From Gammaproteobacteria bacterium (GTDB lineage: Bacteria; Pseudomonadota; Gammaproteobacteria; Xanthomonadales; Wenzhouxiangellaceae), in contig JAJFKY010000012.1 of assembly GCA_021772975.1 (NCBI GenBank), positions 124,001 through 188,000 of the forward strand: a DNA stretch of 64,000 nt. The letters run 5' to 3'. Made by a program: the position numbers and the translations under genes. Below the pieces are notes generated by a model, which did no database searches, was not told where the DNA came from, and saw nothing but the letters and a program-made list of their open reading frames with translations. This document shows, piece by piece, positions 8,205 to 15,671 of this stretch. Within the stretch, counting starts at the first letter, position 1; each line of letters starts with the position of its first letter.

Positions 8205-8990
8205 ATGACGATGACCAAAGACGAATATCTGCGCGGTATTCTGGCATTTGGCCAGACCGATGAAGCCTATTTACGCTGGCATGCGGAGCGGTTTTTACTG
8301 ACCAAAGCCGCCGTTGACCAGCGCATCGGCCGCGGCCAGGCTAAAGTCATTTTTGATATTGGCGCGCACTGGCTGCATCAGGCTTATCTGTATGCTCAGG
8401 ATGGTCATCAGGTTATTGCCACGGATGTCGGCGGTGTGCTGGCGGTGCAATCCGTCCAGCAGTTAGCTAAAACCCACGGCATCCGTCTGCTGCAATCCAG
8501 TGGATTTGATCAGCAACAGGCTTTTGCCGAACTTGCTGACAGTTCCGTCGATCTCGTACTGTTCACGGAAATACTGGAACATATTACCTTTAATCCGGTG
8601 GCACTGTGGCGGGAAATCCACCGCGTCATGAAACCGGATGCGGTGGTGGTTATCACCACGCCCAATTATTACTTCTGGCAATCACGCGCCTGGAACCCGG
8701 CCCGTTTTCTGCGCCGTATGGGCGGTGGCATCCAGGTCGAGGATATCATCACCCAAATCACCTACGGACATCACTGGAAAGAGTATGCCGCGCGCGAAAT
8801 TGTGCGCTACTTTGAAGTGCTGCCCGTTCCGCTGTATGTCGGGCACGCCCGATACCTGTCTTTCAACCAACAGCACCGGCAGGGCTCAAACAGCTGGAAG
8901 ACCCGCTTATTTCATCACCTGGAACGGCACTTTCCGAGCCTGCGTGATTCCATTTATGTAGAAGTGCGCAAAGCTGACGCCGGGCTGTAA
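8205..8990 (+). CDS. Class I SAM-dependent methyltransferase (261 aa)
   Basis: A predicted cytoplasmic methyltransferase of unknown substrate. Motif I is VIFDIGAHWLHQA (about residues 48-60), followed by an acidic strand end ATDVGG that would contact the ribose of S-adenosylmethionine. Motif IV is LVLFTEILEHI, and a post-motif strand reads VVVITTPNYYF. This is the Methyltransf_11/23-like layout with a C-terminal extension rich in aromatic and basic residues. It lies 34 bases downstream of the transsulfuration enzyme on the same strand and may be co-transcribed, but no functional link is evident. Confidence 0.8.
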   Translation: MTMTKDEYLRGILAFGQTDEAYLRWHAERFLLTKAAVDQRIGRGQAKVIFDIGAHWLHQAYLYAQDGHQVIATDVGGVLAVQSVQQLAKTHGIRLLQSSGFDQQQAFAELADSSVDLVLFTEILEHITFNPVALWREIHRVMKPDAVVVITTPNYYFWQSRAWNPARFLRRMGGGIQVEDIITQITYGHHWKEYAAREIVRYFEVLPVPLYVGHARYLSFNQQHRQGSNSWKTRLFHHLERHFPSLRDSIYVEVRKADAGL

Positions 8991-9044: not shown

Positions 9045-10025
9045 TTATCCAACGTGCGTGCCGCCGGCCTGAGAGTCCAGCAGGAACCCATCCAGCTCAA
9101 CCATCAAATCCCGTCGGCAGATATCACCTGCCAGTGGTAACAGGTGCTGGAACCGCAAACCTGAATCAAACAGCTGCCGCTTAACCTCCCGCCAGTCGGC
9201 CGGATCACGCAGGTATATCCGCAAGCTGGGTCTGGCTGCCACCATCGGTTGATGCCGGCTGTTGCCGGCTTCCAGCAGCTTGTCCAGATTGGTCAGCATC
9301 TCAATGGTCTGGGAAACGGTCTGCATAGGATGACTGGTGGCATGCCCGACCACACTGGCAGTTCCGGAAATCAGCAATAAGCCGGGTTCAATCGCCAACG
9401 TGGCCCGTGAGAAGTTGGGGCTGGATGGACCGTAATCGCGGGGATATTCCCAGGCGCTGATCTGGCGTGGATTTTCTATGTTGTGGCCGGCATTGTGGCC
9501 GGTCAGCCAGTACATCACCAGCGGCGCATCCGGATCAGGAATGCCGATAGCGGTAGCGGCCGGCAAAGGGCCGGTAAAGCCTGCCCTGGTCAGGGTATCC
9601 TGACGCCCCTGACAAAACTGGCGGTAGCGTTCCTGATCACCCTGACCGGCATTGATCCCCGGCAGATAGTGCCAGGCTTTCAGCAGGCACGGGTGACCGG
9701 CCTGCAGCGAATACAGGACCTGTTGCCAGGCATAGCGGGTGGCATCCGTGAAATTATCGAATTCAGCCGGATCCAGTTGCAGCCAGTAGATGGAAAAGTC
9801 CTGACTGCTGCGTTGCTCGATAGTACCGCCGGAAAGTTGAATCAACGCACTTCTGACGGTATCCGGGACGCACCACAACTCATCTTCGCCCGCGCCTTCC
9901 AACACCTGCAGCGGCAAATCCCAGAGACGGCCGGAAGGCGTCACCGCACAATGAATCCTGGCCAGTTCATGCAGCCCCTCGGGCGCCGCCGCGCCGGGCG
10001 CGCAATGCAATATTCGCAACGACAT
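9045..10025 (-). CDS. Chorismatase of the XanB2/FkbO/Hyg5 type
   Basis: Likely cleaves chorismate to a hydroxybenzoate or dihydroxy product plus pyruvate. The family was formerly called pteridine-dependent dioxygenase-like. The diagnostic block lies about residues 171-205: YWLTGHNAGHNIENPRQ, then ISAWEYPRDYGPSSPNFSRA. The C-terminal MVELDGF contains a Glu that probably matches the conserved acid of the family. Length 326 is close to XanB2. In Xanthomonas XanB2 makes 3-hydroxybenzoate for xanthomonadin and 4-hydroxybenzoate for ubiquinone; the product here cannot be read from sequence. The ATG overlaps the stop of the acetoacetyl-CoA synthetase gene by one base (TGATG), so the two are translationally coupled. 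Confidence 0.85.
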   Translation of the reverse strand: MSLRILHCAPGAAAPEGLHELARIHCAVTPSGRLWDLPLQVLEGAGEDELWCVPDTVRSALIQLSGGTIEQRSSQDFSIYWLQLDPAEFDNFTDATRYAWQQVLYSLQAGHPCLLKAWHYLPGINAGQGDQERYRQFCQGRQDTLTRAGFTGPLPAATAIGIPDPDAPLVMYWLTGHNAGHNIENPRQISAWEYPRDYGPSSPNFSRATLAIEPGLLLISGTASVVGHATSHPMQTVSQTIEMLTNLDKLLEAGNSRHQPMVAARPSLRIYLRDPADWREVKRQLFDSGLRFQHLLPLAGDICRRDLMVELDGFLLDSQAGGTHVG

Positions 10026-12022
10026 CAGTGCTGCAGCTGCGGTAGATCGCGGAACAGATCCAGCGCTTCTGGGTTGGCTAATGCGTGCGTGTTGTTAACC
10101 GGCCGATCGTGAATCACGTCGCGTACCGCCAATTCGGTAATCTTGCCGCTGATGGTGCGAGGAATATCACTCACAGCGATGATTTTGGCCGGCACGTGAC
10201 GGGGACTGGTGTTGGCGCGAATGGTAGTGCGGATGGTTTGCTCCAGGTTTTCATCCAGTTGTATCCCCGCTTGCAGTCGCACGAACAGAATAACCCGCTG
10301 GTCATCCTGCCAGTCCTGGCCGACACACAGGCTCTCGGCAATCTCCGGCAGCGTTTCCACCTGACGGTAAATTTCCGCCGTGCCGATACGCACCCCGCCG
10401 GGGTTCAGCGTGGCGTCTGAACGGCCATAGATGATCACGCCCTGCTGGCCGCCCGGATGTTCGATGATCCGGGCAAAATCGCCATGCGCCCAGACATTCT
10501 CAAAACGTTCGAAATAAGCGCTGCGATAGCGGCTGCCATCCGGATCGTCCCAGAAACCAACCGGCATGCAGGGAAACGGCGCTGAACAGGTTAGCTCACC
10601 GGTCTGATCATGCACCACCTGTCCGTGATCATCACGAATCTCAACTTGCATGCCCAGCCCGATGCACTGCAACTCCCCGCGCCACACCGGCAATACCGGG
10701 CAACCCAGTGCAAAACAGGAAACAATATCGGTGCCTCCGGAGATAGAACTCAGGCACACGTCGGATTTAATCGCCTGATAAACATAATCAAAATTGCCCG
10801 GCAGCAGCGGCGAACCGGTGGACAGGATAGTCCGCAAGCTTCCCAGGTCATGGCTCTCGCATGGGTTCAAGCCCGCTTTTTCCCACGCGGCAATCGATTT
10901 GGCGCTGGTGCCCAGCACCGTGACGCCCAATTCATCAACCAAATCAAACAGCGCCCTGGGTTCCGGATAAAACGGCGAGCCATCGAACAACGTAATGGTG
11001 CAGCCGCTGGCCAGCCCCGAAACCAGCCAATTCCACATCATCCACCCGCAGGTGGTGAAATAAAACAGATTATCCCGCGGCTTGATGTCGGTATGCAGAC
11101 GATGCTCTTTCAGATGCTGTAACAGGGTGCCCCCGGCTCCATGCACGATGCATTTGGGCACGCCAGTGGTGCCTGAAGAAAACAAAATATACAGCGGATG
11201 ATCAAACGCTGACTGGACAAATTCAGGCGACGGCCTGTCCATGGCAAGTTGCCGGCAATCACTCCATAAACTGACGCCCTCGTCCGCGACTGCCGCTGAC
11301 AAAGTGTCGTCATCGGCCATATAAGGCACCAGAATAACGTGCTCGATAGTATCGATTCTGCGCTTGATTTCACGGATATTGTCGACGCAGTGATGCAGCT
11401 TGCCGTTATACGGATAAGCCGCGGCAGCTACCAGTACCCGAGGACGAATCTGGCCGAACCGGTCACAGACTGCGTTGACACCAAAATCCGGTGAACAGGA
11501 TGACCAGACCGCGCCCAGACGCGCACAGGCCAGCATGGCAATGACGGTCTCCGGCAGATTGGGTAGATAGCCCGCCACACGATCTCCGGTGGTCACCCCA
11601 AATACCTGCAGCGCGCCAGCCAGTTGCGCAACCTGATCGTTTAACTGGGCGTAACTGTAGCTGCCGCGCCGCCCCTGCTCATTGGCAAACTGAATGGCGA
11701 TATGCTGATCATTACGGCGCAACAGATTTTCGGCAAAATTCAGCCGCGCAGCGGGGAACCAGCGGGCTGACTGCAATGACTCACCAGGTTCCAGAACCTG
11801 CTCACCGGTCTGGCTGGCGATCACCTCACAGTGTTCCCAGATGGCTTGCCAGAACGGCCCGGGTTGTTCGATGGACCAGGCATGCAGGGCGGGATAATCC
11901 GTTAACTGCAATTGATAACGCTGATTCACCCACTCCCGGAAGACAGTCAAATTGGCGCTGTCAACCTGTTGCTGATCGGGCTGCCATAAAATCTCGCGCA
12001 TCGTTTCAGCCCGCACTGTCAT
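10025..12022 (-). CDS. aacS: Acetoacetyl-CoA synthetase
   Basis: An acyl-adenylate-forming enzyme that activates acetoacetate to acetoacetyl-CoA with ATP. It recovers ketone bodies and intermediates from polyhydroxybutyrate or leucine breakdown. The N-terminal ACAS cap domain is present, followed by the AMP-binding P-loop YILFSSGTTGVPK near residue 275, the YGRSDATLNPGGVRIG hinge region and the C-terminal RTISGKITE, whose Lys (about 625) is the catalytic and regulatory lysine. 665 residues is typical of AacS. Distinguishing features from acetyl-CoA synthetase are FYFTTCGWMMWNWLVSGLA and SGGTDIVSCF. It heads a two-gene unit with the chorismatase and follows etfA on the same strand. Confidence 0.94.
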   Translation of the reverse strand: MTVRAETMREILWQPDQQQVDSANLTVFREWVNQRYQLQLTDYPALHAWSIEQPGPFWQAIWEHCEVIASQTGEQVLEPGESLQSARWFPAARLNFAENLLRRNDQHIAIQFANEQGRRGSYSYAQLNDQVAQLAGALQVFGVTTGDRVAGYLPNLPETVIAMLACARLGAVWSSCSPDFGVNAVCDRFGQIRPRVLVAAAAYPYNGKLHHCVDNIREIKRRIDTIEHVILVPYMADDDTLSAAVADEGVSLWSDCRQLAMDRPSPEFVQSAFDHPLYILFSSGTTGVPKCIVHGAGGTLLQHLKEHRLHTDIKPRDNLFYFTTCGWMMWNWLVSGLASGCTITLFDGSPFYPEPRALFDLVDELGVTVLGTSAKSIAAWEKAGLNPCESHDLGSLRTILSTGSPLLPGNFDYVYQAIKSDVCLSSISGGTDIVSCFALGCPVLPVWRGELQCIGLGMQVEIRDDHGQVVHDQTGELTCSAPFPCMPVGFWDDPDGSRYRSAYFERFENVWAHGDFARIIEHPGGQQGVIIYGRSDATLNPGGVRIGTAEIYRQVETLPEIAESLCVGQDWQDDQRVILFVRLQAGIQLDENLEQTIRTTIRANTSPRHVPAKIIAVSDIPRTISGKITELAVRDVIHDRPVNNTHALANPEALDLFRDLPQLQH

Positions 12023-12074: not shown

Positions 12075-13013
12075 CTAGTCCAGCGCCTGTTCCAGCTCGG
12101 GAATAATCTGAAACAGATCCCCGACCAGACCAATATCGGCCAGCTCGAAAATCGGCGCGTCGGCGTCTTTGTTAACCGCCACGATGGTGCCCGCATCCTT
12201 GATACCGGTGATATGCTGGATCGCACCGGATATACCAAACGCAAAGTACAGTTCCGGGGAAATAATCTTACCGGTCTGACCAACCTGCATATCATTGGGG
12301 ACATAGCCGGCGTCTACCGCCGCGCGCGAAGCGCCCACGCCGGCTTTGAGTTTTTTAGCCAGCTGATAAATCAACTCGAAATTTTCCGCGCTGCCCAGTG
12401 CCCGGCCGCCGGACACCACGACGCTGGCGGTCTGCAAATCCGGACCGTCACCGCCTTCCGATTGCAGTTCAACAAAACGGGTGTGAGACGGACGCTCCGA
12501 TTGGGCTGCCAGCTGTTCAATTTCCGCGCTATTGCCTTCTTCAGCGGCTGCCCAGGAAGCGGTGCGCACGGTGGCGGCCACCAGCATATCCTCAGGCACG
12601 CTGACTTCAATGATGGCATTACCGGCATAGACCGGACGCGTAAAACTGCGCGCATCGTTGACCGACATGATATCGCTGACCTGATTGACACCCAGTAACG
12701 CCGCCGCGCGCGGCAACACATCCTTGCCATACATGCTGGAGGGCGCCAGCAAGTGACTGTAGCCGGATGCCAGAGCCGCCAGTTCCGGCGCAATCATGGC
12801 GGCCAGCGGATCGGTAAAATCAGCATGCTCAATGTTCAATACCTTGCTCACACCGGCAAGCCTGGCCGCCTGCTCGGCGACTGCCTGACCACTGTCACTG
12901 AATACCGCAATATGCACATCACCGCCGATCTTGACTGCGCAGCTGACGCACTTGGCGGTGGCCGGATTCAGTTTGCCGTTGGCGTGTTCGGCAAGAATTA
13001 ATAGTTTACTCAT
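12075..13013 (-). CDS. etfA: Electron transfer flavoprotein alpha subunit
   Basis: Alpha subunit of the heterodimeric ETF that collects electrons from acyl-CoA and other flavin dehydrogenases and passes them to ETF-ubiquinone oxidoreductase. The C-terminal FAD-binding domain is clear: VVSGGRALGS, VGASRAAVDAGYVPNDMQVGQ, and SPELYFAFGISGAIQH with AVNKDADAPIFELADIG. 312 residues. A TTG opens the frame at 13016, but the following ATG at 13013 with GGAGAA at proper spacing is preferred. It lies about 40 bases downstream of etfB in the same direction. Confidence 0.96.
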   Translation of the reverse strand: MSKLLILAEHANGKLNPATAKCVSCAVKIGGDVHIAVFSDSGQAVAEQAARLAGVSKVLNIEHADFTDPLAAMIAPELAALASGYSHLLAPSSMYGKDVLPRAAALLGVNQVSDIMSVNDARSFTRPVYAGNAIIEVSVPEDMLVAATVRTASWAAAEEGNSAEIEQLAAQSERPSHTRFVELQSEGGDGPDLQTASVVVSGGRALGSAENFELIYQLAKKLKAGVGASRAAVDAGYVPNDMQVGQTGKIISPELYFAFGISGAIQHITGIKDAGTIVAVNKDADAPIFELADIGLVGDLFQIIPELEQALD

Positions 13014-13055
13014 CAATATTTCTCCTTAACCCGGACAGGTCATGCAGAGTTCGGG

Positions 13056-13802
13056 TTATAGCAAGCCGCGGCTTTTAAGCTCGGTGACAAGACCTGCAAC
13101 ATCATCAACCATGATCCCTTTGCCGCGCTGCGGCGGGGGACTCCAGTTGCCGATTTTCAAATCATTACCCGCATCGCTGACCAGACCGTCCAGCGCAACC
13201 ACATCCAGAGGTTTCTTCTTGGCTTTCATGATATCGGGGAGCTTGACGAAACGCGGCGTATTGAGGCGTAAATCGGTGGTAATCACGGCCGGCAAATCAA
13301 TATCCAGCACTTCCAGACCGGCATCCACTTCACGGGTCACCCGGGCGGTATCGCCGCTCAATTCGATCTTGGCCGCATTGGTTGCCTGTGGACGGCCCCA
13401 CAATGCCGCCAGCATTTGCCCGGTCTGATTGTTGTCGTCATCAATAGCCTGCTTGCCCAGTAACACCACACCTGGTTGCTGTTGCTCGACCAGCGCCTGA
13501 AAAGCACGTGCGGCGGTTAAAGGCTGCAGCGGTTTATCCGTATCAATCTGAATGGCCCGGTCCGCGCCCATCGCCAGACCGGTGCGCAACTGTTGCTGAC
13601 AGTCACTGGTGCCGGCCGAAACCACTATCACTTCATCAGCCTGACCGGCTTCGCGCATGCGCAGGGCTTCTTCCAGAGCGATTTCGTCGAACGGATTAAT
13701 GCTCATCTTAACGCCATCAGTATCCACTCCGGAGCCATCCGGGCGTACTTTGACGCGAACGTTGTAATCCACCACGCGTTTGATAAACACGAGTACTTTC
13801 AT
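13056..13802 (-). CDS. etfB: Electron transfer flavoprotein beta subunit
   Basis: Beta subunit of ETF, which binds AMP structurally and carries the dehydrogenase recognition loop. It begins MKVLVFIKRVVDYNVRV, the standard opening. It contains NPFDEIALEEALRMRE and the ETF-beta signature near ITTDLRLNTPRFVKLPDIMK with the recognition-loop stretch before KKPLDVV. 248 residues, standard length. AAGGAAG lies just upstream of the ATG. It is transcribed with etfA downstream. The ETF-QO gene is 264 bases upstream on the same strand, separated by a REP-type inverted repeat, so read-through from it is possible but may be attenuated. Confidence 0.96.
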   Translation of the reverse strand: MKVLVFIKRVVDYNVRVKVRPDGSGVDTDGVKMSINPFDEIALEEALRMREAGQADEVIVVSAGTSDCQQQLRTGLAMGADRAIQIDTDKPLQPLTAARAFQALVEQQQPGVVLLGKQAIDDDNNQTGQMLAALWGRPQATNAAKIELSGDTARVTREVDAGLEVLDIDLPAVITTDLRLNTPRFVKLPDIMKAKKKPLDVVALDGLVSDAGNDLKIGNWSPPPQRGKGIMVDDVAGLVTELKSRGLL

Positions 13803-14066: not shown

Positions 14067-15671
14067 TTAGAGGTTTTGATAATTGGGACCCGCGCCGCCC
14101 TCCGGCGTCACCCAGTTGATGATCTGATAGGGGTCTTTGATATCGCAGGTCTTGCAGTGTACGCAGTTGGCGGCGTTGATCTGCAGGCGCTTACCCTGCT
14201 CGTCCTCCACCATCTCGTAGACACTGGCCGGACAGAATCGAGTGCACGGGTGATCATATTCCTCAGCACAACGGGTCAGACATACATCGGGTTCCAGAAT
14301 CTGCAAATGTACCGGCTGATCTTCATCGTGCTCGGTAGCGGCAAAGTATACCGAGGCGAGACGGTCTTTGGGCGGCAGTTCACGCTCAACCCAATCGCGC
14401 TGCACCGACAGATTCTGTTGCAATGCGGTGTGATCGGCGTGCTGGCGCATGGTCCAGGGCGAAAAACCTGCCGTGGCGGTTTCCCATACCGCATTGGCCA
14501 GCCCAAACCACAGACCTTTGTGAAAACCCGGCCGGATATTACGCACCCGTTTGAGCTCGCTGACGATGGCCGAACCGCGCAGTGCCTGATCAAAGCCGTC
14601 GCTGCGCAGACCATCTGACTGATGCTGCTGATGCAAGTGCTCCGCGGCCAGCATGCCGGAACGCATGGCCTGGTGGGTGCCCTTGATCTTGGGCACGTTG
14701 AGCAGGCCAGCGGCATCGCCGATCAACAAGGCACCGGGCATCTGGGTGTTGGGCAGCGATTGATAGCCACCTTCCACCAGCGCGCGCGCACCCGAACTGA
14801 TAATCTCACCGCCCTCCAGCAGGGCACGCATTCTGGGATGGTGTTTAAACTGTTGCAAAGCCTCGAAAGGAGAAAACGCCGGATCGGCATAATCCAGCGC
14901 CACCACAAACCCCAGCGCCAGACGGTTATCGTCCAGATGATAAACAAAGCTGCCACCATAGGTCCGCGGGTCCAGCGGCCAGCCGATGGTGTGCTGAATC
15001 AGACCCGGCTGCACCCGTCCTTCCGGCAGGCGCCACAGCTCTTTCATGCCGATACCATAGGTTTGTGGATCGCAGTCCTTATCCAGTGAGAAATGCTTGA
15101 TCAGTTGCTTGCTCAGGTGCCCGCGGCAACCTTCCGCCAGGACCGTGACCGGCGCGTGAATCTCGATACCTTCCACATAGGTGTCCTTGGGTTGACCGGA
15201 TTTATCCACGCCCATATCACCGATCACCACCCCGCTGACCGAGCCATCCTGCTTCCAGGCAATCGCGCTGGCGGCATAGCCGGGGAAAATATCCACCCCC
15301 AGACTCTCCGCCTGCGGCGCCAGCCAGCCGCACAGCGCGCCGAGCGAGACAATCACATTGCCATGGTTATTCTGCTGAGGTGGCGTGGGCAACCTGCGTG
15401 CACCGGTTTTACTTAATAACAGGAATTCATCGCGCTGGGCAGCCACGCAGATCGGCGGCGGATTATCCCGCCAGTCAGGCAGCAGATCATCCAGCGGCCC
15501 TGTTTCTATCACCGCACCGGACAGGATATGCGCGCCGACCTCGGCCGCTTTCTCGATCACACAGACATTCAGCTCACTATTGAGTTGTTTAAGCCGCAAG
15601 GCACAACTCAGCCCGGCCGGGCCAGCGCCGACAATCGTCACGTCATACTCCATGACTTCCCGTTCACTCAT
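14067..15671 (-). CDS. Electron transfer flavoprotein-ubiquinone oxidoreductase
   Basis: A membrane-associated iron-sulfur flavoprotein that reoxidises ETF and reduces ubiquinone, linking fatty and amino acid oxidation to the respiratory chain. The N-terminal FAD-binding Rossmann motif is VTIVGAGPAGLSCALRL (about 11-27). A second FAD motif, GALLIGDAAGLLNVPKIKG, lies mid-protein. The C-terminal 4Fe-4S domain has cysteines in CTRFCPASVYEM and NCVHCKTCDIKDP. 534 residues is close to bacterial homologues. It lies upstream of etfB and etfA on the same strand, completing the ETF pathway. The quinone it uses could be made from the product of the nearby chorismatase, which is a contextual inference. 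Confidence 0.96.
   Translation of the reverse strand: MSEREVMEYDVTIVGAGPAGLSCALRLKQLNSELNVCVIEKAAEVGAHILSGAVIETGPLDDLLPDWRDNPPPICVAAQRDEFLLLSKTGARRLPTPPQQNNHGNVIVSLGALCGWLAPQAESLGVDIFPGYAASAIAWKQDGSVSGVVIGDMGVDKSGQPKDTYVEGIEIHAPVTVLAEGCRGHLSKQLIKHFSLDKDCDPQTYGIGMKELWRLPEGRVQPGLIQHTIGWPLDPRTYGGSFVYHLDDNRLALGFVVALDYADPAFSPFEALQQFKHHPRMRALLEGGEIISSGARALVEGGYQSLPNTQMPGALLIGDAAGLLNVPKIKGTHQAMRSGMLAAEHLHQQHQSDGLRSDGFDQALRGSAIVSELKRVRNIRPGFHKGLWFGLANAVWETATAGFSPWTMRQHADHTALQQNLSVQRDWVERELPPKDRLASVYFAATEHDEDQPVHLQILEPDVCLTRCAEEYDHPCTRFCPASVYEMVEDEQGKRLQINAANCVHCKTCDIKDPYQIINWVTPEGGAGPNYQNL

Follow-up and report, generated by a model that had tools for sequence, protein, structure and literature searches.

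In Xanthomonas, XanB2 is known to furnish coenzyme Q8 synthesis with 4-hydroxybenzoate and xanthomonadin synthesis with 3-hydroxybenzoate (PMC4682078, PMC3949708, PMC5069965, PMC8854274). ArcB of Azoarcus sp. BH72, a XanB2-type chorismatase whose genome also encodes an aryl-polyene pigment, has been shown to yield both compounds (PMC3949708). The present analysis deals with a chorismatase gene (nt 9045–10025, minus strand) located in a stretch of 64,000 nucleotides, here termed the window, of contig JAJFKY010000012.1 (positions 124,001–188,000; assembly GCA_021772975.1) from a gammaproteobacterium of the family Wenzhouxiangellaceae, order Xanthomonadales. Its predicted product of 326 aa appears XanB2-like by residue pattern and relatives. 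With XanB2 of Xanthomonas campestris, a bifunctional enzyme of type CH-III, it shares the fold family and, by family membership, the catalytic glutamate; the genome, too, is like the XanB2 system, having no UbiC match and a pigment cluster which, as a whole, we take to be xanthomonadin-like. The setting is different. Whereas relatives in the order often have pigment genes nearby (50 of 116 loci, with 52 labelled elsewhere), and ArcB lies inside its own pigment cluster, the window gene closes a block encoding the electron transfer flavoprotein (ETF) and acetoacetyl-CoA synthetase (AACS).

From sequence comparison we consider it probable, at about 0.77, that this gene encodes a XanB2-like chorismatase supplying 4-hydroxybenzoate to UbiA and ubiquinone from the end of an ETF/AACS block, and probably serving a pigment as well. 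The enzyme would turn chorismate into hydroxybenzoate. Chiefly it would give UbiA the 4-hydroxybenzoate needed for ubiquinone, the lineage being without UbiC, and here it would probably also deliver 3-hydroxybenzoate to a xanthomonadin-like cluster lacking a chorismatase of its own. The gene would have come to stand at the end of an older block of ETF-ubiquinone oxidoreductase (ETF-QO), ETF beta, ETF alpha and AACS genes, presumably on a single transcript, and would be translated by re-initiation from the preceding gene. Such an enzyme with its double function has been described before, whereas the operon setting, the fact that two families conserve it, and the leader remnant of a sister species seem to be new as far as the open-licence literature shows. 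Among the matches listed from that literature, nothing on point was found for an AACS–chorismatase pair or an ETF/AACS cluster, and none of those listed for Wenzhouxiangella together with xanthomonadin or aryl polyene carried the genus name.

Candidate source of 4-hydroxybenzoate

The genome carrying the window is 99.9% complete. A profile search for UbiC (PF04345), which matched E. coli among 14 control genomes, gave no match in it, nor did a search for the Rv2949c-like lyase (PF01947); these two belong to other protein families than the chorismatase and have the same proposed job, the conversion of chorismate into 4-hydroxybenzoate. Some 4-hydroxybenzoate also arises from chorismate by spontaneous decay (PMC7170507). 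The genome search retrieved a single chorismatase, that of the window, and one UbiA above cut-off (320.6 bits). Since UbiA is present, with neither a UbiC, an Rv2949c-like lyase nor a second chorismatase, the window gene is therefore the best candidate source of 4-hydroxybenzoate for ubiquinone, which supports the suggestion, made in a preliminary description of this DNA, that the chorismatase replaces UbiC. Tyrosine ammonia-lyase was also considered as an aromatic source and rejected, the only PF00221 aromatic ammonia-lyase of the genome being histidine ammonia-lyase (hutH above cut-off).

A survey of 151 genomes of the order detected chorismatase in 117 of them (116 with the window protein alone as query; the match in G033 is a fragment of 48 positions), UbiC above cut-off in five and PF01947 above cut-off in 11. 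One or the other of these two alternative lyases was present in 2 of the 117 genomes with a chorismatase vs 14 of the 34 without (Fisher p 6e-9, uncorrected for kinship). Furthermore, 50 of the 151 genomes hold a chorismatase but neither alternative lyase and no PF13723, which we take to be the marker of aryl-polyene chain-length factors; pigment is therefore unlikely to be the sole use of this enzyme family. No chorismatase, no UbiC above cut-off and no Rv2949c-like lyase were found in 20 of the 151 genomes, pointing to another source or to missed members of these families, which could apply to the window genome too; seven of the 20 belong to the genus coded g18 and six to g35 of family f8. 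Within f8 the candidate enzyme varies by genus, being an operon-type chorismatase (one encoded next to AACS), a pigment-cluster chorismatase, UbiC or the Rv2949c-like lyase.

The preliminary description had offered, as an alternative to the replacement of UbiC, that the chorismatase starts an aryl-polyene pigment. A PF13723 match was indeed found on contig C24 of the same genome (G000), within a cluster at about 32.5–42.5 kb (L236, L237) that also encodes a second ketosynthase, a ketoreductase-like protein, a glycosyltransferase, an MMPL-type exporter, a LolA-like protein, a lipid-A-type acyltransferase, an AMP-dependent ligase and an acyl carrier protein-like open reading frame (ORF), the last named by eye from its sequence. 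This is the xanthomonadin-like cluster mentioned above and it has no chorismatase of its own, so that the window gene may supply it with 3-hydroxybenzoate too. The pigment role is thus plausible, while its framing as an alternative does not hold, because XanB2 does both in Xanthomonas.

A genome with such a cluster and a sole chorismatase would also be compatible with a pigment-only enzyme, Hyg5-like and making 3-hydroxybenzoate alone for the aryl-polyene cluster, the ubiquinone ring then coming from an unrecognised source, at the existence of which the 20 genomes with none of the three enzymes hint. However, PF13723 is missing in 12 of the 15 genomes of the AACS–chorismatase pair type, including that of the sister species G114 with its AACS remnant (see below), and residue 159 of the window protein is Ala, where Hyg5 has Gly, although this position is not strict. 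We therefore regard a pigment-only enzyme as unlikely, and return to the chorismatase as a probable supplier of precursors for ubiquinone and pigment alike.

Family, fold and history of the chorismatase

The N-terminal domain of the protein matched FkbO_Hyg5-like_N of Pfam (PF21168) with 78.5 bits against a cut-off of 27, and sequence matches to solved chorismatases were obtained with Hyg5 (5ag3, E 1.5e-30) and FkbO (4bps, E 1.8e-28). The AlphaFold model (mean pLDDT 89.4) could be superposed over its full length on 4bps (FkbO; Z 37.2, 308 residues, 2.5 A) and 5ag3 (Hyg5; Z 37.0, 307 residues, 2.4 A), its C-terminal half being YjgF/RidA-like. The predicted whole-length fold (Z ≈37) and the catalytic glutamate are thus like those of Hyg5 and FkbO (5ag3, 5a3k, 4bps).

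In the alignment, Glu310 (codon at nt 9096–9098, minus strand as for the following ones) is equivalent to Glu334 of Hyg5, catalytic according to PMC7170507. Cys303 (nt 9117–9119) and Gly221 (nt 9363–9365) are equivalent to Cys327 and Gly240 of Hyg5, where FkbO has Ala in both cases, while Ala159 (nt 9549–9551) stands at the position of Hyg5 Gly173. With Glu310 and the Gly and Cys equivalents intact, a loss of catalytic residues was ruled out; the Gly, Cys and Glu equivalents (Hyg5 240, 327 and 334) are kept in 116 of 116 aligned sequences. A functional ubiC, an absence of aryl-polyene genes and a loss of these residues had been named in the preliminary description as what would speak against its proposal, and none of them was found.

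The pattern of FkbO-type (CH-I) chorismatases, Ala at Hyg5 positions 240 and 327, is absent, as Gly221 and Cys303 occupy them. The Gly/Gly/Cys pattern of the Hyg5 type (CH-II), given for Nat-hyg5 as Gly164, Gly231 and Cys318 in PMC7170507 and converted here to Hyg5 numbering by adding 9 throughout, is broken at its first position by Ala159. All four residues common among pigment-cluster homologues at Hyg5 positions 173, 240, 327 and 334 (Ala, Gly, Cys and Glu) are found in the window protein, Ala being the one that not all of those homologues carry (45 of 50; 14 of 16 among operon-type homologues). We infer that Ala at the Hyg5 173 position would mark the XanB2 type (CH-III). As judged from these residues, the window chorismatase is not FkbO-like, deviates from Hyg5 at a single one of the three pattern positions and resembles most relatives in the order. 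Two further positions split the operon type from the pigment type, namely Lys116 (16/16, vs Arg in 46/50) and Ser206 (16/16, vs Ala in 44/50).

A quick tree built from 116 sequences placed every operon-type gene, along with the contig-edge gene of G117, in one group (SH-aLRT 92), the group having been extended by G117 once this tree had been viewed, whereas in a careful tree of 72 of the 116 sequences, thinned by the author, the operon-type group was supported at just 27/33; a contig-edge fragment, L152, has no row in the trees. With this fall in support a single origin of all operon-type chorismatases was dropped as a firm claim, and on the trees it is neither shown nor rejected. In topology tests, holding all f1 chorismatases together was not rejected (p-AU 0.29), while holding all those of f8 together was (p-AU 0.005), and family f8 therefore holds more than one chorismatase line. 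One genome, G149, carries two chorismatase genes, one of the operon type and one of the pigment type.

The AACS–chorismatase junction

According to the ORF list and the domain search, the genes on the window's minus strand follow the order ETF-QO, ETF beta, ETF alpha, AACS and chorismatase. AACS is encoded by an ORF of 665 aa (nt 10025–12022), assigned to acetoacetate–CoA ligase by TIGR01217 (900.5 bits against a curated cut-off of 520.9); its start may be the ATG at 12001 rather than 12022, because the first residue of the leader peptide in the sister species aligns with AACS Met 8. The AACS ORF (12022–10025) and the chorismatase ORF (10025–9045) have one base in common, inside a TGATG junction (nt 10023–10027, minus strand) formed by the AACS stop TGA (10027–10025) and the chorismatase start ATG (10025–10023). 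Upstream, by domain search and comparison of gene order, lie the genes for ETF alpha (nt 12075–13016), ETF beta (nt 13056–13802) and ETF-QO (nt 14067–15671), the latter with ubiquinone-binding and 4Fe-4S domains, all on the same strand. The TGATG overlap and the adjoining ETF genes of the preliminary description were thus both borne out. A promoter scan returned no promoter-like site (3.8 expected) and a terminator scan nine terminator-like sites (6.4 expected). Convergent with the chorismatase gene, a methyltransferase gene lies on the plus strand (nt 8205–8990), for which tblastn, run against the 116 fetched chorismatase loci, gave a match in the sister species alone.

These 116 loci come from the 115 genomes, besides that of the window, in which a chorismatase was matched, and the flanking sequence was fetched to about 6 kb in both directions, contigs permitting. 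AACS lies directly upstream of the chorismatase in 13 of them (14 of 117 with the window locus), in two families of the order, f1 and f8, and a chance adjacency was rejected on this recurrence of the same order. ETF alpha and beta are found upstream in 12 of the 13 pair loci, and ETF-QO in 10 of them within the fetched stretches. Measured from the AACS stop, the nearest candidate chorismatase start falls between −4 and +23 nt in 12 of these 13 loci, with a single exception at 121 nt. The 14 pair loci include G147, in which AACS is cut by the contig end, and leave out G114, where only a remnant of AACS is present and which was labelled as a pair in the context, enzyme, tree and residue comparisons; G117, with a contig break between AACS and chorismatase, was labelled "other" in the context count and the quick tree, and operon type in the careful tree, the residue alignment and the topology test.

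Among 80 loci kept from 224 relatives, an entire or partial AACS immediately precedes the chorismatase in 15; several of these are the same records as genomes counted elsewhere and they were not added to the counts. One of them, L174, on a contig titled Chromatiales, which is another order, carries an ETF/AACS/chorismatase block with neighbours (ETF genes, AACS, CBS) as in f8, and may represent a wrong metagenome title or a moved block.

The tight gene order, conserved in two families, would be expected if AACS and chorismatase cooperated, for example with AACS activating hydroxybenzoate, or if both served one ketone-body or aromatic pathway. However, AACS scores well above cut-off as an acetoacetate–CoA ligase, and the pair is present in only 14 of the 87 genomes with AACS above cut-off. 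From these 87, 20 AACS loci were hand-picked across families, 19 without a known pair and one from G117, whose contig ends 157 bases past the AACS match, at the expected place of the chorismatase. In 7 of the 19 (G005, G018, G007, G097, G063, G027 and G053), ETF alpha and beta stand beside AACS without a chorismatase; of these genomes, G097 has UbiC, G027 has PF01947, and two (G007 and G018) carry a chorismatase gene close to pigment genes. A class-wide draw of 369 genomes, 71 of them with a chorismatase match, points the same way: 30 of the 74 matches became loci, with context covered within about 1.5 kb, and AACS was found in none of the 29 besides the window locus, 26 of which lie outside the order.

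The sister species G114 is likewise at odds with such cooperation. Between its ETF alpha and chorismatase genes, alignment to AACS identified an ORF of 55 codons (L037:8263-8432, minus strand), in which the N-terminus of AACS is fused in frame to the C-terminus and which ends in TGATG, while its chorismatase is intact and 69% identical to that of the window. Genome searches of G114 found no AACS above cut-off (best E 3.2e-75), no PF13723 and neither alternative lyase. With AACS lost and the chorismatase kept, AACS activity is therefore dispensable to the chorismatase; the TGATG junction, by contrast, may not be. The preliminary description had singled out the pairing with AACS as unexpected; as a functional link it is left unsupported by the sister species and by the ETF–AACS loci without chorismatase, and we hold cooperation of the two enzymes to be very improbable. 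The pairing gives the impression of a later addition to a pre-existing ETF/AACS block, and we propose that AACS is a neighbour of the chorismatase and not a partner, what matters being the transcript and the stop–start junction.

Judged by the duplex energy with the anti-Shine-Dalgarno sequence, the chorismatase start is preceded by no Shine-Dalgarno-like pairing in either the window (+1.1 kcal/mol) or the sister (+0.4), compared with −7.9 kcal/mol for ETF alpha, −4.8 for ETF beta and +0.6 to −7.2 for the other window genes. ETF-QO reduces ubiquinone, that is, it feeds electrons to it. These observations, together with the ubiquinone-binding domain detected in ETF-QO and the TGATG junction retained in the sister after the loss of AACS, would fit an addition to the proposed ubiquinone supply, in which expression of the chorismatase follows that of ETF and ETF-QO, making the supply of ubiquinone precursor rise with the electron flow from acyl-CoA and amino-acid oxidation into ubiquinone. 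Yet AACS stands beside the chorismatase in only 14 of the 117 loci, and the remaining contexts make clear that the gene can do without this link; the addition is possible, but we put it forward only tentatively. More doubtful still is an extension suggested by the Lys116/Ser206 split between operon and pigment types and by G149 with one gene of each, namely that operon-type chorismatases form a separate ubiquinone line, making mainly 4-hydroxybenzoate and coupled stop to start to ETF and ETF-QO. By this coupling quinone supply would track the oxidation of fatty and amino acids, and the dead AACS of the sister would persist just as a leader peptide that serves it.

Weight of the evidence and significance

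Several observations weigh against a XanB2-like chorismatase that supplies 4-hydroxybenzoate for ubiquinone and is translated by re-initiation, besides the 20 genomes with none of the three enzymes. TIGR04444 (NCBIfam, FkbO/Hyg5 family) matched residues 88–312 of the chorismatase with 138 bits, under its cut-off of 325 bits, a cut-off that none of the 151 genomes of the order passes. At the Hyg5 Gly173 position, two of the 16 operon-type homologues and four of the 50 pigment-type ones have Gly, and the Ala signature is thus not strict. Pairwise identity does not decide the type, with 35.0% to a part of FkbO, 32.9% to a part of Hyg5 and 32–38% to homologues from f2 and f12, different lengths being compared, and the ArcB paper states that alignment alone gives no accurate prediction of the reaction (PMC3949708). 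Two genomes, G010 and G109, hold both a chorismatase and an alternative lyase. The window methyltransferase (8205) likewise shows no Shine-Dalgarno-like pairing (+0.6 kcal/mol), and among five other pair loci, in a comparison that leaves out L040, L041 (−5.9) and L049 (−2.5) do pair with the anti-Shine-Dalgarno sequence, while L038, L082 and L114 do not; because the methyltransferase has no such site and L041 has one, the argument for re-initiation from the Shine-Dalgarno comparison is weak. Finally, G114 is a metagenome assembly and its AACS deletion rests on one contig.

If the window gene does supply 4-hydroxybenzoate, members of one order, and even of one family, would appear to rely on three unrelated enzymes for a single housekeeping step of respiration, and an enzyme of known kind would seem to have left the pigment cluster where it normally resides for an operon of electron transfer. 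The survey also flags 20 genomes without a recognised 4-hydroxybenzoate enzyme, and the sister species provides a natural test of whether a stop–start junction is retained once the upstream enzyme is lost.

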